A DNA stretch of 64,000 nucleotides from Natrialba asiatica DSM 12278 (GTDB lineage Archaea; Halobacteriota; Halobacteria; Halobacteriales; Natrialbaceae): NCBI RefSeq assembly GCF_000337555.1, contig NZ_AOIO01000039.1, positions 52,722-116,721 on the forward strand, in the 5' to 3' direction. Numbering within the stretch: position 1 is the stretch's first letter; each line of letters starts with the position of its first letter. The translations under genes were made by a program, and so were the position numbers. Under the pieces are notes generated by a model. That model did no database searches, was not told the DNA's origin, and saw nothing but the letters and a program-made list of their open reading frames with translations. Shown one piece after another: positions 8,834-28,328 of the stretch.

Positions 8834-11416
8834 TCAATCCTGCGCCGCCGTTGAAATCCGTCCCTGTCCCCGATCGCGGGCCGACATTGCCGTCTGTGAC
8901 TGCGATGTCCACTCGAGATCGCCCCGATAGTGGAACGCCTCGTTATCACGCTCCGGATCGACGACCGTCAGGTCCGCGACCCAGCCGTTGTCGAGCAGTT
9001 CGGCGACCTCGTCGTGGCGGCGGAGGATCTCGGTCACGCGCTCGCGCGGCGCGTGGATGACCGCCGTCAGCCGGAGCGGCTGGTGGTACGGCTCGTCGTC
9101 GGAGCGCTGCAGCGACTGGAGCGGGAGACCGGTCATCAGATCGCCGCCGTTACCCTGCACGACGCCGACGTTGCCGAGCGGGTTCTGCGTGACCTTCGAG
9201 CCGCTGCCGTAGACGCCGTTGTCCACCGTCGCGAAGTAGTACTGGTTGTTGATCCACTGGGTGACGACCAGCGGCCCGGTCACGATGGCCTCCAGCGCCT
9301 CGCCCTCGGGATCGGTCGTCCAGTCGTAGGAGTGGAGGAACGCGCGGCCGTCTAAGCTCTCATCGTCGGTCAACTCGCGCGGGCCGATGACGAACGAGGC
9401 GTTGCCGGCCAGCCCCCACTCGGGGCGGGTTTCCGCCCAGTCGGCGGCCTTCCGTTCGACTTCGGCGACGGCCTCCCGGGGGTCGACATCGGTATCGTCG
9501 GTCATCGACTCGAGGCGCTCGGCCGCCGCGCCGGCCTGCGCGCGCTCGAGGTCGGCCCGCAGCTGCTTGAGGTCCTCGCGGTGGCTCTCGGGGACGCCCT
9601 CGTCGAACAGGGTGATCTCGTCGGTCGTCGTGTTGTGCTCACCCGCGAGGAAAACCGTATCCTCGGGGATGTTGAACCCGCGCTCGCGGAGCTCGGCTTG
9701 CACGTCCGGATCGTTGCAGATTTCGGCGAGCACGCGTGCGTTCGGGCCGCCGGGATTACCGGCGCAGGCCCCGCAGTCGAGGCTCGAGTCGAACGGATTG
9801 TTCGTCGTCTCGCTCGCGTGGCCGGTGAAAACGACCAGCCGGGCGAACTCCGTCCAGCCCATGAGCGCGAAGGCGTTCTGGGCGTACTCGACCTTCTCCT
9901 CGGGGCGCATGCCCTGCGGAAGGTCGTGGTCGGCGTGGCTGTGATCGTCGTGGTCGTCGTAATCGAGGACCGGCGAACAGAACTCGTGCTGGCTCGGGAC
10001 ACGTTCCTCGACGGCGTTCTCGAGCGAGGCGATCGCCGAGGGAGCGAGCGTCCGCGCGGCCATCGCCGAGCCGTACGCGGCGCCGCCGCCTTCGACGAAC
10101 GGGAAGGCGGCGACGACGTTGGCCTTGAGCCGCTTGAAGTGTTTCCGGGTCGCCTTCGCGAGGCCGGTCCAGCGGTCGCGTTTCGTCATCGTCTCTTCGT
10201 CGTCGGGCCGGTCGACCACGCGGTGTTCGGGGTCGACAATCGGCGGACACGCGTCGACGGCGGCGGTCGCGTCGTAGCCGCGGTAGCGCATCGGGACGCC
10301 GAAGAAGCCGGCGTAGCCGTGGGTCTCGTAGCGGCCCTGCCCCTCGATGTAACGGCGGATGATCTCCGAGCGCGTGTCGATGCAAAACACCAGTTGGGCG
10401 GCCGGCCGCGACGACTCGCCCGCATCGGCGGGTTCGGTCACCGAACCGTCGAGTTGCTCGAGCAGGCGCTCGCGATAGCTTTTCTCCCAGGCGGTCAGCC
10501 AAAGTTCGGGGAGCGGGGGCGTCTCGTCTTCACCCTCGCTCTCGTCGCCAGCATCGGCGCCGCGCTCGTCGTCGCTCGAGGGCTCGATCGGCGCGTCCAG
10601 TAACTCCGCGAGCGTCAGCCGCACTGCGAGGTACTCGCGCAGCGTGATCGGATACGTCGACTGCCAGGGGTCGGTGTCGTCGTCGACGCGCTGCTTGATG
10701 AACCCGGTCCAGCCCGGCAGCGCGGCGAAGTGGTGCTCGGCGATGTCGATCCACCGGCCTTCGGGATACTCGTCGAGGACCGACTCGAGCGCCTCGGTCG
10801 CCGTCTCGGGGAGGTCCGACGAGTCGTCGCAGCCGGATACGTCGCCGTCATAGGGGACCATCGAACGCCAGGCGGCGTAGAACCCCTCCTCGCGGTTCGG
10901 CATCGGCCACTTGGCCTGCCCTTCGTCGAGGAAGGCGGCGAGCCACTTCGAGAGCACGCGGTCAAGGATCTCAGTCGCCTCGTCGGGCTCAGCGTCGGCG
11001 TCGCGCGCCGCTTCGGCCGCGGCCATCTCTTCGAGGAGGGACTCGGGATCGTCCGCGATCCCGTGGGCCTCGAGTTCAACGGCGAGCACGTCGGGGTCGA
11101 TCTGGCCGCGCTCCCAGGCCGTGCGAAAGATGTCGGGGTGCGGATACCCCCGTCCGCCGAACAGGCGCTCGCCGTCGGCGACGGCTCGGTGGAACGGCTG
11201 GTCCTCGAACCCCGAAAGAGGGTTGGCCGTGACGAACGAATACAGCGGCCAGACGGCCCCGACCCGCTCGACCGCGCGCTCGATCGTCGCGGCGATGGGG
11301 TCCTGATCGGCGTCGGGGCCAGTCTCGAGGCGGTCCGTCGCCTGATCGGATTGCTGTAGCGTCCGTTCGGTTCGGGCGTCGCGTTCGAGTTCGGATTGGG
11401 AAGGCTGCTTAGACAT
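8834..11416 (-). CDS. dabA: DabA-family inorganic carbon transporter subunit (DUF2309)
   Basis: An 860-residue protein of the DUF2309/UPF0753 family. DabA forms a complex with the membrane protein DabB that takes up inorganic carbon as bicarbonate. The zinc site, which resembles that of beta-carbonic anhydrases, can be placed: Cys345 and Asp347 in CIDTRSE, His533 in VVFTGHASE, and Cys548 in SLDCGACAGNPGGPNAR. The N-terminal segment WPLYSFVTANPL is also typical. The protein is soluble and expected on the cytoplasmic face. Two acidic insertions (about 276-300 and 484-498, the latter histidine/aspartate-rich) look like halophilic additions. Its ATG overlaps the dabB stop by eight bases, so the pair is co-translated. 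Direction of transport rests on bacterial work; function in archaea is inferred. Confidence 0.93.
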   Translation of the reverse strand: MSKQPSQSELERDARTERTLQQSDQATDRLETGPDADQDPIAATIERAVERVGAVWPLYSFVTANPLSGFEDQPFHRAVADGERLFGGRGYPHPDIFRTAWERGQIDPDVLAVELEAHGIADDPESLLEEMAAAEAARDADAEPDEATEILDRVLSKWLAAFLDEGQAKWPMPNREEGFYAAWRSMVPYDGDVSGCDDSSDLPETATEALESVLDEYPEGRWIDIAEHHFAALPGWTGFIKQRVDDDTDPWQSTYPITLREYLAVRLTLAELLDAPIEPSSDDERGADAGDESEGEDETPPLPELWLTAWEKSYRERLLEQLDGSVTEPADAGESSRPAAQLVFCIDTRSEIIRRYIEGQGRYETHGYAGFFGVPMRYRGYDATAAVDACPPIVDPEHRVVDRPDDEETMTKRDRWTGLAKATRKHFKRLKANVVAAFPFVEGGGAAYGSAMAARTLAPSAIASLENAVEERVPSQHEFCSPVLDYDDHDDHSHADHDLPQGMRPEEKVEYAQNAFALMGWTEFARLVVFTGHASETTNNPFDSSLDCGACAGNPGGPNARVLAEICNDPDVQAELRERGFNIPEDTVFLAGEHNTTTDEITLFDEGVPESHREDLKQLRADLERAQAGAAAERLESMTDDTDVDPREAVAEVERKAADWAETRPEWGLAGNASFVIGPRELTDDESLDGRAFLHSYDWTTDPEGEALEAIVTGPLVVTQWINNQYYFATVDNGVYGSGSKVTQNPLGNVGVVQGNGGDLMTGLPLQSLQRSDDEPYHQPLRLTAVIHAPRERVTEILRRHDEVAELLDNGWVADLTVVDPERDNEAFHYRGDLEWTSQSQTAMSARDRGQGRISTAAQD

Positions 11417-12908
11417 CGTTGTACTCGTCCTTGGTCGTGAGCACGGTCGCGGAATCGGGCTGCGAGAGGTTCACCAGCGAGACGTAGAGGCGCTCGCTCG
11501 AGCGGTGCCACCCGAATTCAGTTGCGAGGTAGGCCCCGACGAACAGGGCGACGACGAGGCCGTGGGCGATCGTCACGTCGGTTGACGTGTGGGTCATCGC
11601 CGAGGGGACCACCGCCGAGATCGCGTTGTACAGCAGGGCGTAGCCGCCGATCGCGGTGAGAACGACCAGCGGGACGCTGACGAACCGAACCGCCCGCGGC
11701 AGGGTCGTCCGGTTGAGGATGTCCCGCGCTGCGGTCAGCGTCGTCAGGACCACCACGAGCGTCAGGATCGTCCCGCTGCCGAACGCCAGGCCCGTCGCCT
11801 TTCCGGTGAGGGCGCCGAAGAGCACGCCGCCGCCGACGGCCGTCGCCAGGCTGACGGTGGCGCTCGCGAAGCCGAACTCGGTGTGGCCGGCGTGTGTGGC
11901 CGTCGATGCGGGCGCGACCTCCTCGACAGCAGTTCCCGACGAGAGGAAGAGGTAGGCCTTGTAGCAGCCGTGAAGGATCAGGTGGGCGATCGCGGCCGCG
12001 AAGAAGCCGAGACCGCACTGGAGGATCATAAAGCCCATCTGGGCCATCGTCGAACTGCCGAGCTTGCGCTTGACGTTCGTCTGAACGAGCAACATCGCCT
12101 GCCCTAGCAGGGCGCTGACCGCGCCGAGGACGACGACGGCCGACATGATCGCGAGGTGGTCGGAAACCAGCGGCGCGAAGCGGGTCAGCAGGACGCCGCC
12201 CGCGTTGACGAAGCCGGCGTGCATCAGCGCCGAGGCCGGCGTCGGCGCCGTCATCGAGGACAGCAGCCACCCGTGGAACGGGACTAGCGCCGACTGGATC
12301 AGCGCCGCGAGGACGATCCCGCCGGCGGCGACGAGGCCGATCGTCGCGGAAACATCCCTGAGACCGCCGAGAATTCCGGCGATCGATGTCGTTCCCGTCT
12401 CCCAGGCAAGCAGCGCCAGACTGCCGGCGAGCACCGCGCTGCTGGCGACGAAGTAGCGACGCGCAAGCGAACCGGCGGCCCGGGCCTGCTCCCAGTCGCG
12501 GACGTGGCCGATGAGGCCGGCCATCAGCAGCCCCATCGCGAGCCACGCCGCCGCGAACAGCGCGACGTGATCGGCCGCGGTCAGCGCCATCACGACGAGC
12601 GTGAACCCGAGCACGCGGGCGAAAAAGCGCTCGAGGTCGCGGTCGCCCGCCATGTAGCGCCGGGAGTAGCTGTGGACGATGCCGCTGAAGAAGGTGACCA
12701 CCATCCACAGCACCGCGGTCAGGCCGTCGACGACCACGTAGTCGACGCCGGTCCACGGCTCGCCGCGGTTGACCGTCAGCGCGAGGACGCCGACGCTACA
12801 GAGAAACAGCGCCCACACCAGCCGCGTCGACGCCCGGGGGACGACCGAATCGTCCGTCGTCGTCAGTTCCGAGAGTTGTACGGCGTCGATCGAGCGTTCG
12901 TCGGTCAT
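11409..12908 (-). CDS. dabB: DabB-family membrane subunit (NuoL/MrpA-like)
   Basis: A 499-residue membrane protein related to the proton-channel subunits NuoL/ND5 and MrpA, here the partner of DabA. About 13 hydrophobic helices fill residues 25-460. Family features are GIVHSYSRRYMAGD in the early part, LLSSMTAPTPASALMHAGFVNAGG in the middle (the proton-antiporter core with a conserved histidine) and NVKRKLGSSTMAQMGFM. In the known complex DabB supplies ion-coupled energy for carbon uptake. No other complex I or Mrp genes are nearby, which supports DabB over a respiratory role. A TATA-like element (plus-strand 12994-13002) lies about 90 nt upstream, giving a leader of about 60 nt. Confidence 0.92.
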   Translation of the reverse strand: MTDERSIDAVQLSELTTTDDSVVPRASTRLVWALFLCSVGVLALTVNRGEPWTGVDYVVVDGLTAVLWMVVTFFSGIVHSYSRRYMAGDRDLERFFARVLGFTLVVMALTAADHVALFAAAWLAMGLLMAGLIGHVRDWEQARAAGSLARRYFVASSAVLAGSLALLAWETGTTSIAGILGGLRDVSATIGLVAAGGIVLAALIQSALVPFHGWLLSSMTAPTPASALMHAGFVNAGGVLLTRFAPLVSDHLAIMSAVVVLGAVSALLGQAMLLVQTNVKRKLGSSTMAQMGFMILQCGLGFFAAAIAHLILHGCYKAYLFLSSGTAVEEVAPASTATHAGHTEFGFASATVSLATAVGGGVLFGALTGKATGLAFGSGTILTLVVVLTTLTAARDILNRTTLPRAVRFVSVPLVVLTAIGGYALLYNAISAVVPSAMTHTSTDVTIAHGLVVALFVGAYLATEFGWHRSSERLYVSLVNLSQPDSATVLTTKDEYNDV

Positions 12909-13213: not shown

Positions 13214-13678
13214 TCACTCCGCGGAGAACTCGTCGAACGAGGTCGACTCGTGGCTGCGCACGAGCACCTCGTCGGTAATCGTCAGGCCCATGTCCGAAAT
13301 CTCCTGCGCGATCGGCGTGATGTCCCGGTCGTTCTTGACGACGGCCGTTACGAGGAGGTTCTCCTCGCCCGTTACCAGTTCCTGCACCGAGACGACGCCG
13401 GGAATGTCCAGAGTGTCGTCGATGTAGTCGCCTCGGTCCGGAATCGGCGCCGTACAGAAGAGGAGCATCCGGATCGGATACCCGGACTTCATGTAATCGA
13501 TGTTGGCGCTGTACCCCTTGATGACCCCCTCCGATTCGAGGCGCTGGATGCGCTTGCGGACCGTACTCGAGGACGCGTCGGTCCGTTCGGCGATCTCGCC
13601 GGACGAAAGGTTCCGGGCCTCCTCCTGGAGCGCGTAGAGGATCTCCCGGTCGACCGCGTCGAGCTCGTACTCGGACAT
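13214..13678 (-). CDS. Lrp/AsnC-family transcriptional regulator
   Basis: A 154-residue regulator. Residues 5-60 form the AsnC winged helix-turn-helix: LDAVDREILYALQEEARNLS, then ERTDASSSTVRKRIQRLESE as recognition region. Residues 65-145 form the ligand-binding beta-alpha domain (VQELVTGEENLLVTAVV). It starts at ATG 13678, 26 nt below a TTATATTC TATA element (13701-13708), indicating a leaderless message; longer upstream frames lack similarity. It sits directly upstream of dabB in the same direction, 305 bp away, making the DAB operon a candidate target. Lrp proteins in haloarchaea usually respond to amino acids or nitrogen status. Ligand and targets are inference. Confidence 0.93.
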   Translation of the reverse strand: MSEYELDAVDREILYALQEEARNLSSGEIAERTDASSSTVRKRIQRLESEGVIKGYSANIDYMKSGYPIRMLLFCTAPIPDRGDYIDDTLDIPGVVSVQELVTGEENLLVTAVVKNDRDITPIAQEISDMGLTITDEVLVRSHESTSFDEFSAE

Positions 13679-13824
13679 ACCGCGTCGTTTCGACCGGCGA
13701 ATATAAGGGACTTCGCCTGCGTCCCGCGGACCGGGTCCGGGTCCGACGGACCGGCGCTCGCCGGTCTCGAGCCGGCCTCGCACGCCTCGCTTTCGACTCG
13801 AGGAGAAGGACGGCAACGGCTCGG

Positions 13825-14019
13825 TTAGTACCCGCCTGCGTCGGAGAAACAGCGACCACACCGGGAGACGTTTCGGTCCGTCGTCGTCCGGTCAATCGAG
13901 ACGAGGCGGAGCCGATCGTGCGTAACGTGCGACGTCGCGCCGCAGTGTGTTCTGAAGTCGGAGCGGCCGGTCTTGTGCTTGTGAACGGTGTTCGTTGTTT
14001 CGTTTAAGACCCCATCCAT
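13825..14019 (-). CDS. Small zinc-finger-like haloarchaeal protein
   Basis: A 64-residue basic protein with cysteines in HCGATSHV and RCGRCFSDAGGY. With nearby histidines these suggest a small single-zinc ribbon. The C-terminal R-C-G-R-C-F ending in G-G-Y recurs, as far as I recall, in small haloarchaeal proteins of unknown role. I chose ATG 14019 because the minus strand has ACTATATGC at about 14043-14051, 25-32 nt upstream, so the transcript would be leaderless; the ATG at 14040 lies too close to the TATA box. It is divergent from the cold-shock gene. Function is unknown; nucleic-acid or protein binding are both possible. Confidence 0.65.
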   Translation of the reverse strand: MDGVLNETTNTVHKHKTGRSDFRTHCGATSHVTHDRLRLVSIDRTTTDRNVSRCGRCFSDAGGY

Positions 14020-14619: not shown

Positions 14620-15204
14620 ATGGCGAACCAGTACATTACCGCCGACGAGCACCTGCCAGAGACGGGAACAGACGAGACCGTAACGCATCTCCAGATCCGG
14701 GATCCGGAGACGAAAGAGATCTTCGAGGCGCGAGTTCACGTCGCGAGGGAGTCGGATCGGCTCGACGATCCGAAGCCGCTGTCGGTCGTCAGGGGGCCAC
14801 ACGAAAACACGACCGAACAGTGGTACGTCGAGTTCGTCGACGAGGCGGTCGAAAGAGAGCGACTCGAGCGACTCGCCGACGAGCAGCGCGAGCGCTCGAA
14901 CGTGGTCAACACCCGGTCCGACGATCTGACGGTTTTGTTGCGGTATCTCGTCGAGACCGGCCGCTACGAGTCGACGGCGGCGGCCGTCAGAGCGATCTTG
15001 TTCGAGCATCTCGCCGACCGCGATCCGGCGGTGCTCGAAGCCTACGACGAGATTCGGACGGCCTACGACGCGGACCCGTTGCGGGAGGCGCTCGCGGGTG
15101 TAAGCCGTGAGGAAACGGACGCTAACGCCGTCTCAGACGCCGACGATCCCGCCGTCGTGGTAACGGAACGGGAGACGGGAACCGACCGGTCCGGGGCCAG
15201 ATGA
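14620..15204 (+). CDS. Ribbon-helix-helix-like protein leading the ubiD-like operon
   Basis: A 194-residue acidic protein. Residues 95-140 (SNVVNTRSDDLTVLLRYLVE then GRYESTAAAVRAILFEHLA) have the strand followed by helix-turn-helix pattern of ribbon-helix-helix proteins. The first 90 residues resemble no family I know, and the last 45 are disordered. Its stop overlaps the start of the first UbiD-like gene (ATGA), so it is translationally coupled to a decarboxylase-type enzyme pair and may regulate that operon. ATG 14608 is an equally possible start (four more residues). Function unproven. Confidence 0.65.
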   Translation: MANQYITADEHLPETGTDETVTHLQIRDPETKEIFEARVHVARESDRLDDPKPLSVVRGPHENTTEQWYVEFVDEAVERERLERLADEQRERSNVVNTRSDDLTVLLRYLVETGRYESTAAAVRAILFEHLADRDPAVLEAYDEIRTAYDADPLREALAGVSREETDANAVSDADDPAVVVTERETGTDRSGAR

Positions 15205-16772
15205 CCGCCGAGACGTTTCGAGACTTTTTGCGGTTGCTCACCGATGCCGGCGCAGCCAACGAGATCCAGACGTCAGTCTCGTGGGATCTCGAGGCGAGCG
15301 CGATTACGATGCGGGCAAACGCCACCGACGAACGGATTCCGATCTTCGAAACCGTCGAGTTCGAGGGGACGGACGCCCGCCTCGTCGGCGATCCCTATCG
15401 AGGGCCGCGCGCGCGCGTCTTCGAGCACCTTTCGCGGGCGTTCGAGCTGCCCGATCCGGCGGGGCTGTCGGGACCGGCGTACTACGAACGGGTGATCGAT
15501 CGACTTGCGGACCGGCGCGAACCGACCGTCGTCGATCCGGCGACCGCCCCCTGCAAGGAGGTCGTCCGAACCGGCTCGGCGGCCGATCTGCTCGACTTTC
15601 CCTGGCCGTACATCCACCAGCAAGACGGCGGTCGGTACGCGACCCTGACGACGCTCGTCGCGCCCGATCGGGACGGCGCGTGGGGCCGGTGGTCGCGCCA
15701 CCGCGCGATGATCCACGGCCGCTCGCAGGCCAGTCTCTTGTTTCTCGCCGGCGAACAGTTGCCGAATCGCTACTACTACGAGTTCGAACGCCGCGGCGAG
15801 GCGATGCCGGTCGCGCTGACGGTCGGGACGCCCCCGGCCGTGACGGCCGCAAGCGAGATGTGGATTCCAGTCGGCCGCCAGGAAGCGACGTTCGCCGGCG
15901 GCCTCCAGGAATCGCCGGTCGACCTCGTCCCCTGCGAGACGAACGACCTCCGCGTCCCGGCGTCGGCCGAACTCGTCATCGAGGGCCGCGTGCTGCCGGA
16001 CGAACGCCTCGACGAGGGGCCGTTCGGGGACTACTTCGGCTACGTCAACGGCCCGCGGCGATCGATGCCCGCCCTCGCGGTCGACGCGATCACCCACCGC
16101 AAGCAGCCGTATCTCCCCTTCTGTGTGGGCGGATCGGGCGTCGGCTATGCCGAGAACTCGACGAGTTCGCTCCAGGTTGCAGCGGGCGGGCCGGACGCTA
16201 CCCTCGGACTGCGCGCCGCGGGCTATGACGTGAGCATGGCCGCTCCCTGGCCGTTCACCGAGCGGACGGTCTGGGTGATCGCGACGGACCGCCCCTACGC
16301 GGGCTACCTGCACGAACTCGCGAACTTCATCTTCACGACCTGGGGGATGCTCCACATCGACTGCTTCGTCTTCGTCGACGCCGACGTCAACCCGCTGCAC
16401 CCGCGTGCGGTGGTGGAAGCGCTCGCGCTGCACGCCGATCCGGCGACGGACTTCCACCAGTTCGGCGTCGAGCGGATGCCGAAGGTGCCGCTGAACATCT
16501 ACCAGACGCCCGACGAGAAGGGCAACGCGGCGGTCGGAACCTCGAAGTCGAAGACGGCGAAGGCGTACGTCGATGCGCTTTCGGCCGGAGACCGACCGAC
16601 GCGGGCGATCGGCGAGCGCGAGGATCGCGAGCGCGCCCGCGATCTGCTCTCGACGGCCGGCGTCGACGGGGCGGTCGAACCCCACTATGTGACCGACACC
16701 GACGCCAACGCCAACGCCAACGCCAACACCAGCACCGACACCGGGACCACGACCCACCGATCAAACCGATGA
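15201..16772 (+). CDS. UbiD-family decarboxylase
   Basis: A 523-residue protein of the UbiD family. Members add or remove a carboxyl group on aromatic or alpha,beta-unsaturated acids using prenylated FMN made by UbiX. Recognisable parts are PAGLSGPAYYERV near the N-terminus, YATLTTLVAPDRDG, the core IEGRVLPDERLDEGPFGDYFGYV (about residues 257-279) with acidic residues of the active site, and the C-terminal VPLNIYQTPDEKGNAAVG region. No ubiX is in the window. A hexamer repeat (GCCAAC four times, 16704-16727) encodes an alternating Asn/Ala tail at the C-terminus. Both ends overlap neighbours by ATGA. The substrate is unknown; aromatic acid breakdown or quinone synthesis are options. Confidence 0.88.
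   Translation: MTAETFRDFLRLLTDAGAANEIQTSVSWDLEASAITMRANATDERIPIFETVEFEGTDARLVGDPYRGPRARVFEHLSRAFELPDPAGLSGPAYYERVIDRLADRREPTVVDPATAPCKEVVRTGSAADLLDFPWPYIHQQDGGRYATLTTLVAPDRDGAWGRWSRHRAMIHGRSQASLLFLAGEQLPNRYYYEFERRGEAMPVALTVGTPPAVTAASEMWIPVGRQEATFAGGLQESPVDLVPCETNDLRVPASAELVIEGRVLPDERLDEGPFGDYFGYVNGPRRSMPALAVDAITHRKQPYLPFCVGGSGVGYAENSTSSLQVAAGGPDATLGLRAAGYDVSMAAPWPFTERTVWVIATDRPYAGYLHELANFIFTTWGMLHIDCFVFVDADVNPLHPRAVVEALALHADPATDFHQFGVERMPKVPLNIYQTPDEKGNAAVGTSKSKTAKAYVDALSAGDRPTRAIGEREDRERARDLLSTAGVDGAVEPHYVTDTDANANANANTSTDTGTTTHRSNR
16704..16727 (+). repeat. Hexanucleotide repeat (GCCAAC)x4
   Basis: Four perfect tandem copies of GCCAAC lie in the last 25 codons of the UbiD-like gene and encode Ala-Asn repeats. 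Copy-number changes would keep the reading frame, so tail length may vary between strains. Confidence 0.9.
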
Positions 16773-18208
16773 CTGCCTTCCGGAATCACCTCGAGTTCCT
16801 CCGTCGAACCGACGACTGCTGCGCGCTCGACCGTCCCGATGGTCTCTCCCCGCAGGTCGTCGCCGCGGAGGCGCTTCGAGCCGACGGTCCCGCGATCGAG
16901 TTGACGACCGATGGTCGAGCCGGCGTTGAACTCGCGAGCGGCGTCTACGGCGGTATCGACCAGACGCGCGGTCGAACGCGGGGACAACCCCGTGGCCGGT
17001 ATCCCTGGACCCGCCTCGGGCTCGGCCTCGGAGTCGACCGCGATCCGGCGTACGTCGACGTGCTCGAGACCCTGCTCGCACTCGGCGAGCGACGGGCAGA
17101 ACGCGACGTGACCTACGTCGAACGCGCCGCCGCGGCGACCGAACTCGGCGTGCGGGAGCTGGGCTTGCCGACGCCGCCGGACGAGGCCTGGCCCCGGTTC
17201 ACGCTTGGCGTGCTCTCGATCGGCGCCGACGCGGGATCGTACTGGGCACCGATTCACGGCACGATCCTCGACGGACGGACGATCCGCGCCCGCGTTCCCG
17301 AGGCGATCGCCGCCCACGATCGGCTCTCGACGGGCGCGTCCGCCACGATCGCGCTCGGCGTCCCGTCGGAAGCACTCGCGGCGGCGCACTTGCTTGCGAT
17401 CACCGACCGGCTCGCGACGCCGATCGAGGACCGCGGCGTCGGCGCGACGGTCCCGCTCATTCCCACCGCGGGCGGCGTCGTCCCGAGTTCAGCGGAGGTC
17501 GTCATCGAGACCGCCGTTGCGGACCGCCAGCCCGACACCCGGTCCGAGAAGCGCGAGTTCTGGGAGCACCTGGTCCCGAGTACGACGCTGACGCTCGAAG
17601 CCGAGGCCGTCTTCTCCCGCGAGGACCCCGTCGTGCCGTACGCGCCGCTCGGAGCGGCGCTGTCGGACGACCTCCAGTTGGCGGCGCTCTCGTTATCGGC
17701 GACGCTGTGCGATCGGGTCAACAGCTACTGGGGCGTGTCACCGGTCGACTGGCTGTTGCTCCCGGCGGAGGGACGGCTCGGGCTCTGTCTGGTCGCCTCA
17801 GAAATCCTCTACGCCGGCTTCGAGTGGCAACTGGCGAACCTGCTGTTTTCGCTGTCCGACTGCTTCGACAAGGTGATCGTCGTCGACACCGAGACCGGGC
17901 CGCGAAATCTCGGGCAAGTACTCGGCGATAGCTGGGTCAAAGCCCACCCCTCGCGGGACTGGCTGTTCAGCGAAGCCGACGCCCCGGCCGCCCGGCTGCC
18001 GGCCTACGGCCGGGACGACGAGACGGGCGCGCGACTCTATGTCGATGCCACCTGGGACCCCCGCTGGAAGGACGAGTTCATCGCGCCGCGCGTGTCGATC
18101 ACCGACTCCTATCCGCCGGAGATTCGCGCGGCGGTTCGCGACTCATGGGCTGAGCTCGGCTTCGAGTCCGATGCTGCGTTCGAAGAAGCGAGCGGCTCCG
18201 GGAGTTAG
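16769..18208 (+). CDS. Divergent UbiD-family paralogue
   Basis: A 479-residue protein coupled by ATGA overlap to the preceding UbiD-like gene. General architecture matches UbiD: an N-terminal segment (YPWTRLGLGLGVDRDPAYVD), a middle domain (GSYWAPIHGTILDGRTI, where the partner has SRHRAMIHGRSQASLLF) and a C-terminal part (FEWQLANLLFSLSDCFDKVIVVD aligning with the partner's ANFIFTTWGMLHIDCFVFVD). The catalytic-core pattern EGPFGDYFGY of the partner is missing; the matching place reads AVADRQPDTRSEKREFWEHL. It may be a non-catalytic or structural subunit, or act on another substrate. Length is slightly short for UbiD. Family membership is fairly sure, activity is not. Confidence 0.78.
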   Translation: MTAFRNHLEFLRRTDDCCALDRPDGLSPQVVAAEALRADGPAIELTTDGRAGVELASGVYGGIDQTRGRTRGQPRGRYPWTRLGLGLGVDRDPAYVDVLETLLALGERRAERDVTYVERAAAATELGVRELGLPTPPDEAWPRFTLGVLSIGADAGSYWAPIHGTILDGRTIRARVPEAIAAHDRLSTGASATIALGVPSEALAAAHLLAITDRLATPIEDRGVGATVPLIPTAGGVVPSSAEVVIETAVADRQPDTRSEKREFWEHLVPSTTLTLEAEAVFSREDPVVPYAPLGAALSDDLQLAALSLSATLCDRVNSYWGVSPVDWLLLPAEGRLGLCLVASEILYAGFEWQLANLLFSLSDCFDKVIVVDTETGPRNLGQVLGDSWVKAHPSRDWLFSEADAPAARLPAYGRDDETGARLYVDATWDPRWKDEFIAPRVSITDSYPPEIRAAVRDSWAELGFESDAAFEEASGSGS

Positions 18209-18453: not shown

Positions 18454-20181
18454 ATGCCAGCGGACCACAACCTGTCGGGCTACGACGAGACGCGCCAGGC
18501 GTTTTCGTGGGACGACGGTTACGAGGAAGCCGACTGGGACGCCCCGGAGCGAATAAATATCGCACACGAGGTCTGCGATCGCCACGCCGAAAACAAGGAG
18601 AAGGTGGCGCTGTACCAGGTCGGCGAGGACGGCGAGTTGACGACGTTTTCCTTCTGGGAACTCGCCGAGCGAACCGACCGGTTCGCGAACCTCCTCGCCG
18701 AACTCGGGATCGAGCGCGGCGACCGGGTCTTCTCGTATCTGCCGCGGATTCCCGAACACTACGTGGCGCTCGTCGGGACGCTGAAACGCGGTGCCGTCTT
18801 CGGCGGTGTCAACGAGCGGTTCGGGCCGGACGGCATCGCCTACCGGCTCGACGACTGCGACGCGAAGGCGATCGTCACGACCGCCGACAACCGAGACACC
18901 GTCGAGGCGGCGCTCGAAGACGCGCCGTCGGTCGAGCACGTCATCGTCGTCAGCGACGACGGGACGGGGCTTCGCCGCGGCGACGTGAGCTACCGCGCGG
19001 CCATGGAGCGAGCGAGCCGCGAGTACGAGACGGCCGAGACGAGCGGCGAGGACGACGCGCTGTTGTACTACACCAGCGGAACGACCGGACCGGCGAAGGG
19101 CGTCCTCCACAAACACCGGTGGGTTGTCGGCGTGGCAACGACGCAGCGCTACGCCGCCGACCTCCAACCGGGGGACCTGTACTGGTCGACGGCCGATCTC
19201 GGCTGGCTGACCGGCCCCATCAACACGCTCGGAGCCTGGTTCCGGGGCACCGCCCTGTTCACCTACGAGGGTGAGTTCGACCCCGAGGCGTGGGCCGACC
19301 TGCTCGACACCTACCCGATCAGCGTCCTCTTCTCGGTGCCGACGGCCTACCGAATGCTCCGGGAAAACGAGGCCGTACTCGAGGGGACCGAACTCGACCT
19401 GCGCCACGCGCTGTCGATCGGCGAACCGCTCTCGGCCGGCGTCGTCGAGTGGGGCGAAGAGACCCTCGGCGTCACCATTCACGACACCTACGGCCAGACC
19501 GAGACGGGGAACATGATCGTCAACAACTACCCGACGATGGAGGTCCGACCGGGATCGATGGGCAAACCGCTACCCGGCATCGAGGCGGAGGTAGTCGATC
19601 CCGAAACCGGCGCGGTGCTCGACCCCGGCGAGACGGGCGAGATCGCCCAGCGCGGGGACTACCCCTGCTTCTTCGCCGAGTACTGGGAGAAGCCCGACAA
19701 GACGGCCGACTGCTTCGTCGACGGTCCCGACGGCGGTGAGCAGAGCGAGACGATGCGATCCTCGCCGGACGAGACGGCTGGCGGCGAGTGGTACCTCTCG
19801 GGCGACCTCGCGCACAAGGACGAGGACGGCTACCTCTGGTTCGAGGGGCGGGCGGACGACGTGATCCTCTCCTCGGGCTACCGCATCGGCCCCTTCGAGG
19901 TCGAGAGTTCGCTCGGCGAGCACGAGGCCGTCGCGGAGGCGGCCGTCGTACCGAAGCCCCACCGCGAGCGCGGCAACATCGTGAAGGCGTACGTAGTGCC
20001 GGGCGGCGACGCGACGCCCACGGAATCGCTCAAAGACGAGATCACGGACCACGTCAAGTCCGAACTCTCCGCCCACGAGTACCCCCGCGAGGTCGAGTTC
20101 CGCGAGGAGTTGCCCAAGACGGTGACGGGGAAGATCCGACGGACGGAGTTACAGGACGAGGCGGCCGCGGAGGCCGAATAG
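18454..20181 (+). CDS. AMP-forming acyl-CoA synthetase (acetyl-CoA synthetase family)
   Basis: A 575-residue adenylate-forming enzyme that turns a carboxylic acid, CoA and ATP into acyl-CoA, AMP and pyrophosphate in the cytosol. The phosphate-binding loop is YYTSGTTGPAKG (about residues 206-217). DTYGQTETG (about 347-355) contacts AMP, SGDLAHKDEDGYLWFEGRADD is the hinge region, and the catalytic lysine lies in the C-terminal KTVTGKIRR. It is nearer the acetyl/medium-chain synthetases than long-chain ones, but the acid it uses cannot be fixed. It opens a same-strand set with an acyl-CoA dehydrogenase and a carboxylase, so it probably feeds that pathway. AGTTATCAC (18422-18430) may be the TATA box. 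Confidence 0.9.
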   Translation: MPADHNLSGYDETRQAFSWDDGYEEADWDAPERINIAHEVCDRHAENKEKVALYQVGEDGELTTFSFWELAERTDRFANLLAELGIERGDRVFSYLPRIPEHYVALVGTLKRGAVFGGVNERFGPDGIAYRLDDCDAKAIVTTADNRDTVEAALEDAPSVEHVIVVSDDGTGLRRGDVSYRAAMERASREYETAETSGEDDALLYYTSGTTGPAKGVLHKHRWVVGVATTQRYAADLQPGDLYWSTADLGWLTGPINTLGAWFRGTALFTYEGEFDPEAWADLLDTYPISVLFSVPTAYRMLRENEAVLEGTELDLRHALSIGEPLSAGVVEWGEETLGVTIHDTYGQTETGNMIVNNYPTMEVRPGSMGKPLPGIEAEVVDPETGAVLDPGETGEIAQRGDYPCFFAEYWEKPDKTADCFVDGPDGGEQSETMRSSPDETAGGEWYLSGDLAHKDEDGYLWFEGRADDVILSSGYRIGPFEVESSLGEHEAVAEAAVVPKPHRERGNIVKAYVVPGGDATPTESLKDEITDHVKSELSAHEYPREVEFREELPKTVTGKIRRTELQDEAAAEAE

Positions 20182-20310
20182 GGAGTAGCGAGCAGCAAGT
20201 AACGAGTCGCAAGGAGCAAGCAGCGGATGGCGGGTCCCAAGGAGCAACTACCGAGACCCGCAATCGACACGATACGGCGACGACGAAATCAGACACAACG
20301 GAGAGACACC

Positions 20311-21477
20311 ATGAACTTCGAATCCACGCAGGAACGCGAGATGATCCGACGGACGGCGGCCGACGTCGCCGCCGAGTACGGGCCGGAGCACTGGCGCGAG
20401 AAAGAACGAGCGGGCGAGTTCTCCGAAGCCTTCTGGGCTGAACTCGCGGACGCGGGCTTTCACGGCCTGTTGATCCCCGAGGAGTACGAGGGGGCCGGCA
20501 TGGGAATGCAGGAGATGGGCCTGGCGATGGAGACACTCTGCGCCGAGGGCTGCGGCATGGCCGGAACCTGGTACCTGGTCCTCACCGCGGGGATGGCCGC
20601 GGTCGGCATCCGCGAGTACGGTACCGAGGCCCAGAAGGAGACCTACCTGCCGGACATCGCGAACGGGAAGCGCAACTTCTCGATCGGGATCACCGAGCCC
20701 GAGGCTGGGACGAACACGCTGAACGTGGCAACGACGGCCGAGAAGGAGGGAGACGAGTACGTCCTCAACGGCCAGAAGGCCTGGATCACGTTCTCGGATC
20801 GCGCCGAGAACATGATCATCGTCACGCGGACGACGCCTCGCGATGAGGTCGACCGCGGGACGGACGGGATCAGCCTGTTCGTCGTCGACATGAACGACCC
20901 GAACATCGACGTCTCGCCGATCGAAAAGCACGGGATCAACTACTCGAAGTCCTGCGAGGTGTTCCTCGAGGACGTACGCGTCCCTGCCGAGAACATGCTC
21001 GGCGACGAGGACGACGGCTGGTGGGTGCTGGTCGACATGCTCAACCCCGAACGGATCGGCTTCGCCGCGGCGGGGACGGGGATCGGCAAACTCGCCGCGA
21101 ACACGGCGATCGAGTACGCCAACGAGCGCGAGGTGTTCGACGCGCCGATCGGCTCCCACCAGGGCGTCTCGTTCCCGATCACGAAGGCGTACGCGCAGAT
21201 GGAGACCGCCGCGCTCATGCGCGAGAAGGCGGCCTGGCGCTACGATCAGGGCGAGGAGTGTGGCTACGAGACCAACGTCGCGAAGGCGACCGCTGTCGCG
21301 GCCGGCATCGAGGCCGTCAAGCAGTCCATGCAGGCCTTCGGCGGCTGGGGCTACGCCACGGAGTACGACGTCGAGCGCTGGTGGCGAGAGATCAACCTGA
21401 CCCGGCTCGCACCGGTCTCCCAGCAGATGGCGTACAACCACATCAGCCAGCAGCTCGGATTCCCGAAGTCCTACTGA
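20311..21477 (+). CDS. Acyl-CoA dehydrogenase
   Basis: A 388-residue FAD enzyme that introduces an alpha,beta double bond in an acyl-CoA and passes electrons to ETF. The FAD/substrate motif FSIGITEPEAGTN is at about residues 127-139, and the C-terminal helical domain has QAFGGWGYATEYDVERWWREI. Where many family members carry the catalytic Y-E-G-T, this one reads LTRLAPVSQQMAYN; instead LNPERIGFAA (about 249-258) places a glutamate where isovaleryl- and long-chain dehydrogenases keep their base. The start at 20311 fits the family N-terminus (MNFESTQER). Only 9 bp separate it from the carboxylase gene. Branched-chain acyl-CoA is a plausible substrate, by inference. Confidence 0.92.
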   Translation: MNFESTQEREMIRRTAADVAAEYGPEHWREKERAGEFSEAFWAELADAGFHGLLIPEEYEGAGMGMQEMGLAMETLCAEGCGMAGTWYLVLTAGMAAVGIREYGTEAQKETYLPDIANGKRNFSIGITEPEAGTNTLNVATTAEKEGDEYVLNGQKAWITFSDRAENMIIVTRTTPRDEVDRGTDGISLFVVDMNDPNIDVSPIEKHGINYSKSCEVFLEDVRVPAENMLGDEDDGWWVLVDMLNPERIGFAAAGTGIGKLAANTAIEYANEREVFDAPIGSHQGVSFPITKAYAQMETAALMREKAAWRYDQGEECGYETNVAKATAVAAGIEAVKQSMQAFGGWGYATEYDVERWWREINLTRLAPVSQQMAYNHISQQLGFPKSY

Positions 21478-21486
21478 TCTATTAGC

Positions 21487-23280
21487 ATGTTCGACAAACT
21501 ACTCGTTGCCAACCGCGGCGAAATCGCCGTACGCGTCATGCAAGCGTGTGAAGAACTGGGCATCGACACCGTCGCGATCTACAGCGACGCGGACCGCAAC
21601 GCGGGTCACGTCGAGTTCGCAGACGAGGCGTACAACGTCGGCCCCGCACCCGCGAGCGAGTCGTATCTCGACCAGGGGACGATCCTCGACGTCGCCGACC
21701 GCGCAGGCGCGGATGCGATTCATCCGGGCTACGGTTTCCTCGCCGAAAACGCCGCGTTCGCCGCGCGCGTCGAGGATGCAGAGGGAATTACCTGGGTCGG
21801 GCCGCCCAGCGAGGCGATGGACGCCCTCGGCGAGAAGACGACGGCCCGACAGGTCATGCAGGCGGCCGACGTGCCGGTCGTCCCGGGGACGAGCGATCCC
21901 GTCGACTCCGCCGCCGAGGTTCGCGAACTCGGCGACGAGTTCGGCTACCCGGTCGCGATCAAGGCCGCCGGCGGCGGCGGCGGTCGCGGGATGAAGATCG
22001 TCCGCAGCGCGGACGAAGCCGAAGACGCCCTCGAGAGCGCGAAACGCGAGGGCGAGGCCTACTTCGACGACGCGACCGTCTACGTCGAGAAGTACCTCGG
22101 GTCCCCGAAGCACGTCGAGGTCCAGATCCTCGCGGACGAGCACGACACCGTGCTCCACCTCGGCGAGCGGGACTGCTCGCTCCAGCGGCGTCATCAGAAG
22201 GTCATCGAGGAAGCGCCGAGTCCCGCACTCGACGGGGCGCTGCGCGAAGCGATCGGCGAGGCCGCCCGCCGCGGGGTCCGCGAAGCCGGCTACACGAACG
22301 CGGGCACCGTCGAGTTCCTCGTCGAAGACGGCGAGTTCTACTTCATGGAGGTCAACACCCGGATTCAGGTCGAACACACCGTCACCGAGGAGGTGACGGG
22401 GATCGATATCGTCCGGGAACAGCTACGAATCGCGGCCGGCGAGGAACTTCCCTTCGCGCAGGCGGATGTAGACATCAACGGCCACGCCATCGAGTTCAGA
22501 ATCAACGCCGAGAACCCCGCCGCGGAGTTCGCGCCGACGCCGGGTGAACTCGAGACCTACGTCCCGCCCGGAGGGCTCGGTGTTCGGGTCGACGACGCCG
22601 TTACCGAGGGCGACGAGATCGCCGGCGACTACGACTCGATGATCGCGAAACTGATCGTTCGCGCGCCGACGCGCGAGCGGTGTCTCGAGCGCTCCCGGCG
22701 CGCGCTTTGCCATTTCGATATCTCGGGTCCCGAGACGATCGTGCCGTTCCACCGGCTCATGATAGACGACGAGCGGTTCCGCGCGGGCGAGCACACGACC
22801 GACTACCTCGACCGCGAGGTCGACGCAGATGAACTCGTTGCGGCGGTCGAGCGGTGGGGCTCCAGCGCGGCCGGGAGCGGAGCAGACGGCGACGCCACGG
22901 ACGAGCACGAACTCGTCGTCGAAGTCGACGGGCGGCGGTTCGACGTGCTCGTCGAGGACGATCGTCCGCGGGTGGCGAGCAACGGCGGAGCCGACGCAGG
23001 TACGACCACGGGATCGGCGAGTTCGGGTTCGAGCAGCGGCGCAGCCGCGACCGAACAGGTCGCGGCCGGCGATGCCATCACGGCCGAGATGCAAGGCACC
23101 GTACTCTCGGTCGACGTCGAACCCGGCGACGAGATCGGTGCCGGGGACGTGGTCTGCGTGCTCGAGGCGATGAAGATGGAGAACGACGTGGTCGCGCCGG
23201 GGGCCGGCTCCGTCGCCGCAGTTCCCGTTTCCGAGGGCGACTCGGTCGACATGGGCGACCCGCTGATCGTACTGGAGTGA
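21487..23280 (+). CDS. Acyl-CoA carboxylase, biotin carboxylase plus BCCP subunit
   Basis: A 597-residue biotin carboxylase joined to a biotin carrier domain. It carboxylates biotin with bicarbonate and ATP, then the carboxyl is moved to an acyl-CoA by the next gene's product. The N-terminal motif is [19 protein letters not shown]-grasp loop [14 protein letters not shown] starts near residue 159; [14 protein letters not shown] holds metal and catalytic residues near 290. A glycine/serine/alanine linker (about 495-520) leads to the biotinyl domain, with Lys563 in EAMKMEND as the biotin site. It lies in an operon with the dehydrogenase (9 bp) and carboxyltransferase (3 bp). Acetyl-, propionyl- and methylcrotonyl-CoA are all possible substrates. 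Confidence 0.95.
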
Positions 23281-23283
23281 GCA

Positions 23284-25128
23284 ATGACGATGGAACTCAG
23301 ACTCAGTGTGAAAGAGACGGCAGGACAGGACGAAAACGAGATACAGGCGGTCGCGACGGCGCTTGCGACCCACTTCGGCGAAGCCGTCGACCTCTATCCC
23401 GAGACCGGTGACGAACTCCTCGCGAGCGCGTCGCCGCCGGACAACGGAACCGAAACCGAAACCGGAGCCGGAACCGGAATCGGGGGCGCTGGCAGCGGTC
23501 CTGGACCAGTACAAAGCGCCGGTCGCAGCCGCGACCGAGGAAGCGAGCGGGACGACCTCGAACCGACCGAACGCGAGGAACTCCTGCGCGAAGAGATCGA
23601 GGAGATACTCGAGGGCGGCCCGGAGAAGTACAAGGAACGCCTTCCGGAGCAGGGAAAGCTGTTCGTGCGCGATCGGCTCGACCTCTGGTTCGGCGACGGC
23701 GACGGGTCAGGCGGTGACAAACCAAACGGAATCACGTTCGAGGACGGAAGGTTCGCCAACTTCGACGCCGAGGACGACCTGCCGGCGGACGGCCTCATCA
23801 CGGGCGCGGCCGAGTTCGAGGGCCGGGACCTGCACTTCATGGCCAACGACTTCACCGTCAAGGCGGGCTCGATGGCCGAGAAAGGCGTCGAGAAGTTCCT
23901 CCGAATGCAACAGCGAGCGCTGAAGACCGGCCGTCCGGTCCTCTATCTCATGGATTCGTCGGGCGGCCGGATCGACCAGCAGACCGGCTTCTTCGCCAAC
24001 CGCGAGGGCATCGGGAAGTACTACTACAACCACTCGATGCTCTCCGGACGCGTTCCCCAGATCTGCGTGCTCTACGGCCCCTGTATCGCCGGCGCGGCCT
24101 ACACGCCCGTCTTCGCCGACTTCACCGTTATGGTCCGAGACGTAAGCGCGATGGCCATCGCCTCGCCGCGGATGGTCGAGATGGTCACCGGCGAGGACAT
24201 CGATCTGCAAGATCTGGGCGGCCCGGACGTCCACGCCCGCCACTCCGGTAGCGCCGACCTGATCGCCGAGGACGAAGAGCACGCGCGCGAACTCGTGGCG
24301 AAGCTGATCGGCTACCTGCCGGATAACAGCGACGAGAAGCCGCCACAGACCGAGGGGACGGCACCGCGACTCTCGCCCGACGGCATCGACGCCGTCGTCC
24401 CGCAGGAACCGAACCGCGGATACGACATGTTCGACGTCATCGAGCGCGTCGTCGACGCCGACTCGGTGCTCGAACTCCGACCGGAGTACGGCAAGGAGAT
24501 CATCACGGCCTTCGCCCGGATCGACGGCCGGCCGATCGGCATCGTCGCCAACCAGCCCAACCACCGCGCCGGGGCGATCTTCCCCGACGCGGCCGAGAAG
24601 GCCGCCGAGTTCATCTGGACCTGCGACGCCTACGACGTGCCGCTGCTGTACCTGTGTGACACGCCGGGCTTCATGGCCGGTTCGCAGGTCGAGAAAGACG
24701 GCATCTTAGAGCAGGGCAAGAAGATGATCTACGCGACTTCCTCGGCCACCGTCCCGAAGCAGTCCGTCGTCGTCCGCAAAGCCTACGGCGCGGGGATCTA
24801 CGCGATGTCCGGGCCGGCCTACGACCCCGAGAGCGTGATCGGACTCCCGAGTGGCGAGATCGCCATTATGGGTCCCGAGGCCGCGATCAACGCGGTCTAC
24901 GCGAACCGGCTCGCGGATATCGACGATCCGGACGAGCGCGCCGCGCGCGAGCAGGAACTGCGCGAGGAGTACCGCGAGGACATCGACATCCACCGGATGG
25001 CGAGCGAGGTCGTCATCGACGAGATCGTCCCGCCGAGTTCACTGCGCGACGAACTCGAGAATCGCTTTGCGTTCTACGAGACGGTCGAGAAGGACCTGCC
25101 GGACAAGAAACACGGGACGATCCTCTAA
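23284..25128 (+). CDS. Acyl-CoA carboxyltransferase subunit with extra N-terminal module
   Basis: A 614-residue carboxyltransferase that moves CO2 from carboxybiotin to an acyl-CoA. The ordinary family start (EREELLREEIEEILEGGPEK, about residue 97) is preceded by some 95 additional residues: a 55-residue acidic module (ELRLSVKETAGQDENEIQAV onward) and a repeat-rich linker of Glu/Thr/Gly. That module looks like the small 'acc operon' or epsilon/PccX-type protein found beside haloarchaeal carboxylases. The core shows MDSSGGRIDQQTGFF, YGPCIAGAAYTPVFADF (acyl-CoA oxyanion hole) and RKAYGAGIYAMSGPAY. It ends 4 bp inside an opposing damaged gene. The acyl substrate is undetermined; the dehydrogenase upstream favours a branched or short chain. 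Confidence 0.93.
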   Translation: MTMELRLSVKETAGQDENEIQAVATALATHFGEAVDLYPETGDELLASASPPDNGTETETGAGTGIGGAGSGPGPVQSAGRSRDRGSERDDLEPTEREELLREEIEEILEGGPEKYKERLPEQGKLFVRDRLDLWFGDGDGSGGDKPNGITFEDGRFANFDAEDDLPADGLITGAAEFEGRDLHFMANDFTVKAGSMAEKGVEKFLRMQQRALKTGRPVLYLMDSSGGRIDQQTGFFANREGIGKYYYNHSMLSGRVPQICVLYGPCIAGAAYTPVFADFTVMVRDVSAMAIASPRMVEMVTGEDIDLQDLGGPDVHARHSGSADLIAEDEEHARELVAKLIGYLPDNSDEKPPQTEGTAPRLSPDGIDAVVPQEPNRGYDMFDVIERVVDADSVLELRPEYGKEIITAFARIDGRPIGIVANQPNHRAGAIFPDAAEKAAEFIWTCDAYDVPLLYLCDTPGFMAGSQVEKDGILEQGKKMIYATSSATVPKQSVVVRKAYGAGIYAMSGPAYDPESVIGLPSGEIAIMGPEAAINAVYANRLADIDDPDERAAREQELREEYREDIDIHRMASEVVIDEIVPPSSLRDELENRFAFYETVEKDLPDKKHGTIL

Positions 25129-26144: not shown

Positions 26145-27254
26145 ATGGCAGAAGCGCAGTCGATTGACGAGCATGCAGCCGTCCGGGAGCGGGAGGGGTG
26201 GGTGACCGGACGGCTCGTTCTCTTTTGTCTGGCGAGTGCAATCATTACCGTCGTCGCCGGACTGATACAGGTGAGTTTCGGGGAATACTCGATGACGTTC
26301 GTCGAGACGTGGGAGGCGGTTTTCAATCCCGCGGTGATCTTCAGCCTCGACGCGTGGTCGGCGTTTCTCTTCGGCACCGAACTCCCGAACATGACCACCG
26401 GGAGCGTCGTCGTCTGGGACCTCCGGCTGCCGCGAGTGTTCGTCGGGATCATCGCCGGCGCGACGCTTGCGGTCTCGGGAGCGATCTTCCAGGCGGTAAC
26501 GCGAAACGAACTGGCGAGTCCGTTCATACTGGGGGTCAGCTCCGGTGCAGGATTCGCCGTCCTGGCGACGCTCGTCGTTTTCAGCGGGCTCTCGCATCTT
26601 CTGCCGCTGGTCGCCGCCCTCGGCGGAACGGTCGCGTTCGTGGTCGTGTACGTGATCGCCTGGAAAGGGGGAACGAGCCCGGTCCGACTCGTGCTCGCTG
26701 GCGTCATCGTCAACATGGTCTTCCAGTCGCTCCAGCAGGGACTGTTCTTCTTCGCGGACGATCTGGGGGTCGTCCAGACGGCGATCGCCTGGCTGACGGG
26801 CTCGCTGACGGGAACCGGCTGGGGAGAAGTTCGGATCGCGATTGTGCCGGCGATCGTCGCGATCGGAATCGCACTCGCCGGCTCGCGGCAGTTGAACGTC
26901 CTGATGCTCGGCGAAACCACCGCCCGATCGCTCGGGATGCAGGTCGAGCGAGTTCGGTTTTTCCTCTCGGCCGTCGCGATCCTGGCGGCCAGCGTCGCAA
27001 TCGCCGTCGCGGGCATCGTCAGCTTCTTCGGACTCGTCGTGCCCCACATCGTCCGCAACACGCTGGGCGGGGATTACCGGCGGCTGATGGTCGGCTGTCT
27101 CTTCGCCGGCCCCGCGCTGATGGTCACCGCAGACGTCGGCGCGCGGCTCGCGCTGAGCGGCACCCAGATACCCGTTGGCATCGTCACCGGCCTGATCGGC
27201 GGCCCCTATTTCCTCTACCTGATGCGCAAACAGCACTCGATGGGTGAACTCTAA
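26145..27254 (+). CDS. FecCD-family iron-type ABC importer permease
   Basis: A 369-residue BtuC/FecCD-type permease for iron-siderophore, haem or cobalamin uptake. About ten hydrophobic helices cover residues 25-365. Family landmarks are WDLRLPRVFVGIIAGATLAV (residues 87-106), GVSSGAGFAVLATLV, TARSLGMQVERVRF (coupling helix that contacts the ATPase) and FFGLVVPHIVRNTLGGDYR. The long first extracellular loop (about 50-85) is usual in haloarchaeal versions. The start overlaps the ATPase gene's start region at its other end (TAATG), so both are co-translated. The operator before it makes ferric-siderophore the most likely cargo. Confidence 0.93.
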   Translation: MAEAQSIDEHAAVREREGWVTGRLVLFCLASAIITVVAGLIQVSFGEYSMTFVETWEAVFNPAVIFSLDAWSAFLFGTELPNMTTGSVVVWDLRLPRVFVGIIAGATLAVSGAIFQAVTRNELASPFILGVSSGAGFAVLATLVVFSGLSHLLPLVAALGGTVAFVVVYVIAWKGGTSPVRLVLAGVIVNMVFQSLQQGLFFFADDLGVVQTAIAWLTGSLTGTGWGEVRIAIVPAIVAIGIALAGSRQLNVLMLGETTARSLGMQVERVRFFLSAVAILAASVAIAVAGIVSFFGLVVPHIVRNTLGGDYRRLMVGCLFAGPALMVTADVGARLALSGTQIPVGIVTGLIGGPYFLYLMRKQHSMGEL

Positions 27255-28177: not shown

Positions 28178-28297
28178 TCCCACCGGGCGATGAAAAACCG
28201 GCGGCTGGATTCAAATATCGAGACGCTCCGTTGAGAGATCGCTGAAACGATCCGGGAGGACGCTGAATTGAACTGGAAGACGGTCCCCTTCGGAACA

Positions 28298-28306
28298 CTT
28301 TTATAA
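28298..28306 (+). promoter_or_regulatory. TATA element of the iron-binding lipoprotein gene
   Basis: CTTTTATAA at 28298-28306 lies 23-31 nt upstream of ATG 28329 and abuts the operator at 28307. This gene therefore has its own promoter although its permease and ATPase are immediately upstream. Confidence 0.6.
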
Positions 28307-28324
28307 TTTTAGGCTCACCTAAAT
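28307..28324. promoter_or_regulatory. Iron-box-like operator 2
   Basis: TTTTAGG-CTCA-CCTAAAT has 6-bp perfect core arms TTTAGG/CCTAAA with a 4-bp spacer and the same spacing to TATA and ATG as operator 1 at 26123. The pair implies that both transcription units answer to one iron regulator, which is not encoded in the window. Confidence 0.75.
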
Positions 28325-28328
28325 TCTG

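Follow-up and report, generated by a model that had tools for sequence, protein, structure and literature searches.

A conserved gene trio of Halobacteria combining a UbiD-family protein with a triad-less UbiD paralogue in genomes lacking UbiX

Enzymes of the UbiD family depend on prenylated flavin mononucleotide (prenyl-FMN) made by UbiX and are treated as strictly dependent on this supply; to our knowledge, UbiX is the only known enzyme that makes their prenylated flavin. We analyzed a 64,000-nucleotide stretch of Natrialba asiatica DSM 12278 DNA (hereafter the window, whose numbering is used throughout), which carries three coupled genes, here named P1, P2 and P3. P2 belongs to the UbiD family and retains the catalytic triad, P3 is a UbiD-fold paralogue without the triad, and P1 is a small protein with a ribbon-helix-helix-like C-terminal part. 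The trio, a candidate heteromeric (de)carboxylase, is conserved in Halobacteria and occurs in genomes that lack UbiX.

Several described UbiD systems resemble this locus in part. Like the trio, the phenylphosphate carboxylase PpcABGD of Thauera and Azoarcus combines two UbiD-like subunits and a small gamma subunit in one cluster. Unlike the trio, it has UbiX encoded in the same cluster, and both PpcA and PpcB of Azoarcus possess the triad that P3 lacks; moreover, the PpcD phosphatase and phenylphosphate synthase are not found in the trio neighbourhoods inspected. Among the PpcABGD subunits P2 is closest to PpcA (30%, expect value E=4e-43); P3, too, favours sequences of the PpcA/PpcB type. Neither protein matches the phenylphosphate carboxylase subunits at equivalog level, P2 scoring 144 bits against a cut-off of 565 (TIGR02723) and P3 scoring 32 bits.

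Complexes or gene clusters with several UbiD-like subunits are also known from the anaerobic carboxylases of naphthalene and benzene; in culture N47, the cluster for naphthalene carboxylase encodes four UbiD-like proteins (PMC12016498). Prenyl-FMN has been proposed for these anaerobic enzymes, whereas UbiX is absent from the trio genomes and some trio clusters contain oxygenase-like genes. The carboxylase of Desulfatiglans anilini needs both of its UbiD-like subunits together and was reported to be active with FMN alone (PMC7500099). In vanillate decarboxylase VdcCD, the small partner VdcD binds the UbiD protein VdcC and is required for activity (PMC8379154); this system has a single UbiD chain type and VdcD is a zinc ribbon, whereas P1 does not have the four-cysteine ribbon. 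PA0254/HudA and Fdc1, which are the closest solved structures to P2 and, by fold, to P3, differ from the trio in being homodimers that require UbiX-made prenyl-FMN. Since phenylphosphate and naphthalene carboxylases are known, a heteromer of two UbiD proteins is already an established type, and an earlier note on this DNA, which had called two-subunit UbiD enzymes unusual, overstated the case. The triad-less partner and the absence of UbiX are variant features of the trio, and its novelty lies in the UbiX-less, obligate pair of a UbiD and a pseudo-UbiD.

Distribution of the trio and absence of UbiX

The genes P1 (14620..15204, 194 aa), P2 (15201..16772, 523 aa) and P3 (16769..18208, 479 aa) lie on the plus strand. 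Their open reading frame coordinates agree with the ATGA overlaps described in the earlier note, giving 4 bp at each of the two junctions. RefSeq gives the trio proteins no names beyond 'UbiD family decarboxylase' and 'ubiD operon protein', one record using the latter for P1. The open-access literature on haloarchaeal UbiD operons and on UbiX-less UbiD enzymes yielded nothing on the trio system.

Of 292 Halobacteria genomes drawn, 66 contain P3, and all 66 also possess close P2 and P1. A 67th match, in genome G267, was a weak match to the ordinary UbiD of that genome and was discarded. We looked for P3 without P2, which the earlier note regarded as evidence against a paired enzyme if frequent, and never found it in these 292 genomes. 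Among 106 fetched stretches (some genomes were fetched twice), a single one departs from the order P1-P2-P3, with P1 located elsewhere. Of the 41 loci studied in detail, 36 show a P2-P3 overlap of exactly 4 bp, and 40 have P1 immediately upstream of P2. The arrangement is not a chance one, because it recurs across Halobacteria. P3 is also present on 17 of 72,556 plasmids, all 17 of them haloarchaeal. All three genes, P2 included, evolve under purifying selection, with ratios of nonsynonymous to synonymous substitution rates (dN/dS) of 0.04-0.27 in eight close pairs. Genome G212 carries two P2-P3 copies (L061, L060); the P1 of one copy is truncated and divergent, and that of the other lies at a distant chromosomal site.

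The most surprising result, which the earlier note did not contain, is the absence of UbiX. UbiX (TIGR00421) has no match in any of the 66 trio genomes, so that P2 lacks a UbiX supply in the same cell, whereas, at the threshold used, the 10 Halobacteria of this draw with other UbiD proteins all carry UbiX (Fisher p=1e-12). UbiX is uncommon in Halobacteria in general (24/292), and its lack of overlap with the trio alone gives p=0.0016; of the two, the comparison with genomes carrying other UbiD proteins is the stronger. Of PF02441, the wider flavoprotein family that includes UbiX, every one of the 32 trio genomes tested has a single member, and in the genome of the window this member has 390 residues and reads as CoaBC. 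Missing data cannot explain the absence, because most of the genomes are 95-100% complete. No additional gene shared by the two types of trio neighbourhood (described below) suggests itself as a replacement. The enzyme must therefore obtain prenyl-FMN in another way or use a different flavin.

It can be speculated, at somewhat less than even odds, that a widespread UbiD lineage runs without UbiX-made prenyl-FMN, either through a haloarchaeal flavin prenyltransferase yet to be described or as an alpha-beta-gamma complex with a different cofactor, aided by the triad-less beta subunit. The 66 genomes, which span many genera, provide a naturally replicated case in which a conserved, triad-intact UbiD persists without UbiX, and the question of whether UbiD chemistry can run without UbiX becomes directly testable in genetically tractable haloarchaea.

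P2, its archaeal orthologues and the cofactor

The complete set of UbiD family domains (N-terminal, rift-related and C-terminal) is found in P2, which matches the Pfam profiles UbiD (PF01977, 209 bits, E=4e-62), UbiD_N (PF20695, 29 bits) and UbiD_C (PF20696, 49 bits), all over cut-off. The EGPFGDYFGY core recognized earlier is present, and P2 proves to be a full UbiD with the triad intact. In the alignment to its nearest solved relatives, Fdc1 and PA0254, the triad codons fall within 15702..16031 on the plus strand and encode R168 (15702-15704; Fdc1 R173), E272 (16014-16016; Fdc1 E277) and D277 (16029-16031; Fdc1 E282). This Glu-Arg-Glu/Asp network is conserved in 41/41 aligned relatives, as is E228, which corresponds to the metal ligand Glu233 of Fdc1.

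Outside Halobacteria, a search of the phylum with the P3 profile revealed one genome, G494, that encodes a P3-like protein of full length (E=7e-67). Its locus encodes, in order, a P2-like UbiD, a 79-aa protein, the P3-like UbiD, a 112-aa protein and a phenylacetate-CoA-ligase-like protein (CoA, coenzyme A). In the related locus of genome G466, a P2-like UbiD is preceded by a 118-aa protein and followed by a 93-aa protein, after which comes a P3-like UbiD truncated where the contig ends. Both loci resemble the trio in having orthologues of P2 and P3 with small proteins in between; they differ from it in that UbiX is present in both genomes and that the small proteins have no ribbon-helix-helix tail. 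In the phylogenetic tree, halophile P2 proteins group with the P2-like proteins of G494 and G466 (support 1.0), and halophile P3 proteins group with the P3-like protein of G494 (support 0.99). The split into alpha and beta proteins is therefore older than the halophiles. Unlike P3, the P3-like protein of G494 keeps the Arg and the first Glu of the network and has Gly for the last acid.

Two explanations of the cofactor have to be weighed against these data. The first holds that ordinary prenyl-FMN is used, either scavenged from neighbours or supplied by a flavin prenyltransferase other than UbiX that has gone unrecognised. The full network and the invariant metal-ligand Glu of P2 agree with it, the Asp at the last position does not contradict it, since the E282D variant of Fdc1 has lowered but not abolished activity (PMC5818171), and the orthologous alpha/beta pairs of G494 and G466 co-occur with UbiX. 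The lack of TIGR00421, of a spare PF02441 protein and of any shared replacement gene speaks against it, and we consider this explanation tentative, with the balance tilted against it. The second holds that the UbiD-fold enzyme has been freed from prenyl-FMN and uses unmodified FMN, another flavin or no flavin. The absence of UbiX agrees with it, as does the two-UbiD carboxylase of D. anilini reported active with FMN alone; in addition, the position near the cofactor metal that is N168 in Fdc1 is Arg163 in P2 (15687..15689, plus strand) and drifts among R, D, S, T, H and N in halophiles, being Asn in both archaeal orthologues examined. The retained triad of P2 argues in the opposite direction, and positions 168 and 191 vary even in proven prenyl-FMN enzymes: PA0254 has Ser at 168 and is nevertheless active and prenyl-FMN-requiring, and Gly occupies position 191 in bona fide UbiD proteins. 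The second explanation is thus also possible, and we hold it with the same reserve as the first.

The changes at the positions of Fdc1 N168 and H191 were also considered as proof, through a lost metal site, that P2 is independent of prenyl-FMN. This was ruled out by Ser168 of PA0254, Gly191 of UbiD and the UbiX-bearing genomes G494 and G466, whose P2 orthologues have Gln at position 191 as well; as read from the alignment, the changes may give a weak hint of such independence. Separately, P2 of the window ends in a low-complexity tail (DANANANANTSTDTG..., 16690-16760, plus strand), which is unseen in most relatives, their P2 being ~20 residues shorter.

P3, P1 and the proposed complex

P3 matches a single Pfam family, UbiD_C (E=9e-11, residues 312-427), which corresponds to its C-terminal oligomerisation domain (17702..18049, plus strand), the most conserved part of the protein with the densest invariant columns. 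Direct alignment with P2 covers the C-terminal halves (28% identity, E=9e-11), and profile-profile comparison extends over the full length (probability 99.8, E=7e-29). The AlphaFold2 model of the single chain (mean predicted local distance difference test score, pLDDT, 80) is a complete UbiD fold, and the match to PA0254 extends along the entire chain (Foldseek E=9e-24, probability 1.00, template modelling score 0.68). The overall layout that the earlier note had seen in P3 thus stands. Its description of the motif region as unrelated requires correction: P3 has SEKREFWEHLV where P2 has EGPFGDYFGY, and an invariant Trp-Glu pair (W265-E266) lies near the lost motif across 45 relatives. The catalytic network is lost, the columns of Glu233, Glu277 and Glu282 being unconserved, with gaps at some E277/E282 positions, and the Arg173 column holding His in the clade of the window and Arg or Lys in the other clade.

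Loss of the triad and the long branch of P3, which diverges faster than P2, could mean that P3 is a duplicate degenerating into a pseudogene. The dN/dS values of 0.05-0.26 for P3, the 51 invariant residues in 45 relatives (most of them in the oligomerisation domain), the full-length reading frame in nearly all genomes and the presence of P3 with every P2 contradict this explanation, which we rejected as highly improbable. P3 is not decaying, because dN/dS is low for all three genes, and it provides a clear example of a triad-less UbiD paralogue retained as an obligate partner.

P1 has no match to a Pfam family, in agreement with the absence of a named family stated earlier. It consists of an N-terminal beta domain (residues ~1-75) and a ribbon-helix-helix-like C-terminal part (~92-135). 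The AlphaFold2 model of the single chain (mean pLDDT 78) has five N-terminal strands followed by helices at 101-112 and 119-134, an order of elements resembling that of the ribbon-helix-helix type, and the tail finds SegB (probability 0.90) and ParD (0.82) in Foldseek, both weakly (E about 0.5). The N-terminal 75 residues align with the four small proteins of G494 and G466 with an hhalign score of 30.4 (probability 44.5%), whereas 60 column-shuffled controls reach at most 14.8 and a reversed control 8.1. Strengthened by gene position, this kinship is suggestive, not conclusive. The earlier note had suggested that P1, with its ribbon-helix-helix-like segment, could be the regulator of the set. 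The tail has a similar order of elements, and a regulatory role is possible. It is not the best single reading of P1, because the N-terminal half is similar to the small proteins encoded among orthologous UbiD genes in non-halophilic archaea; more likely, P1 joins a domain resembling a small subunit to a ribbon-helix-helix tail.

Taken together, these observations suggest that the trio encodes a heteromeric alpha-beta(-gamma) UbiD-type (de)carboxylase, a reading to which we assign a probability of about 0.6; the complex, the role of P1, the direction of the reaction, the substrate and the cofactor are what we infer in it. P2 would be the catalytic alpha subunit, performing (de)carboxylation through its acid-Arg-acid network. 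P3 would be the beta subunit, itself without catalytic activity, binding P2 via the C-terminal oligomerisation domain and stabilising or gating the active site of P2; contacts in UbiD dimers are formed mainly through this domain (PMC3650080). The N-terminal half of P1 may act as a small accessory, gamma-like subunit, as VdcD does for VdcC, and the ribbon-helix-helix tail fused to it in halophiles may add autoregulation or dimerisation. The substrate would be a carboxylic acid or acyl-CoA within an aerobic CoA-dependent catabolic pathway. The heteromer is likely because P2 and P3 always travel together and the oligomerisation domain of P3 is conserved. The new heteromeric decarboxylase imagined in the earlier note is therefore retained as a likely interpretation, with the obligate pair added and its regulator kept in part.

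Alternatively, P2 and P3 may not bind each other, P2 being an ordinary homo-oligomeric UbiD, P3 a protein with a separate role within that pathway (for example a repurposed ligand- or CoA-binding one) and P1 purely a ribbon-helix-helix repressor of the operon. The tail of P1 and the separate set of invariant residues in P3 fit this arrangement, and gene coupling by itself is no proof of binding. Conversely, the most conserved region of P3 is the UbiD dimerisation domain, P3 does not occur without P2, and the N-terminal domain of P1 resembles small proteins found among UbiD pairs elsewhere. We regard this alternative as unlikely.

Several points weigh against the heteromeric enzyme. The case for a P2-P3 complex is built from genes, sequence and fold, the folded models of P1 and P3 being single chains, and a prenyl-FMN-dependent reaction is unexplained without UbiX. 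The neighbours of the trio differ between two clades, so that no single substrate fits all. The link of P1 to the small archaeal proteins is remote at the hhalign probability given above, and P1 had no match in pairwise BLAST with the archaeal small protein. The phenylphosphate carboxylase gamma family PF09662 (PpcG) is not among the matches listed for P1 members (best 25 of 35 families, E up to 10) and PpcG aligns with P1 at noise level in hhalign, by which P1 was ruled out as a PpcG homologue. Finally, the outgroup of P3 outside Halobacteria is one draft genome, and that genome has UbiX.

Genomic setting

Two types of neighbourhood, designated clades A and B, surround the trio. In clade A (49 stretches, including the window), the conserved genes encode an acyl-CoA synthetase, an acyl-CoA dehydrogenase, a biotin carboxylase, a carboxyltransferase and often a MaoC hydratase. 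In the window, these downstream genes lie on the plus strand and comprise an AMP-binding acyl-CoA synthetase (18454..20181), an acyl-CoA dehydrogenase whose start codon is not settled (20305..21477), the biotin carboxylase subunit of an acyl-CoA carboxylase (21487..23280) and, by position and homology to its clade A counterparts, the carboxyltransferase subunit (23284..25128). Clade B (~50 stretches) usually has a metallo-beta-lactamase-fold protein beside P3, followed by divergent PaaA/PaaC/PaaB/PaaD-like genes and a 2Fe-2S ferredoxin; a benzoate-CoA-ligase-like synthetase, an acyl-CoA dehydrogenase and enoyl-CoA hydratases are also present. Both types are CoA-thioester catabolic settings, and they offer possible entry points to the little-known haloarchaeal catabolism of aromatic or unsaturated acids.

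The PaaA/PaaC matches in clade B are under the equivalog cut-offs. The oxygenase-like set (15717-18010 in locus L159, and equivalents) has its own ferredoxin and a GNAT gene and scores well under the phenylacetyl-CoA epoxidase cut-offs. The metallo-beta-lactamase-fold gene (13415-14371 in L159, and equivalents) usually follows or overlaps P3 in 48 stretches of clade B and may be a fourth member of the system.

Upstream of the trio, an AsnC/Lrp-type regulator (13214-13861, minus strand) is divergent from P1 and adjoins the trio in close relatives too; it is a possible regulator of the cluster. No operator was identified in the listed upstream regions of P1. Further upstream, 8834-12908 on the minus strand encodes a transporter pair for inorganic carbon, consisting of DabA (PF10070, 894 bits) and a DabB-like proton-channel subunit. 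DabAB was rejected as a part of the system, being found beside the trio only in Natrialba relatives. On the downstream side of the window, a FecCD permease, an ABC ATPase and a periplasmic-binding protein (26145-29447, plus strand) form an iron or cobalamin uptake set.

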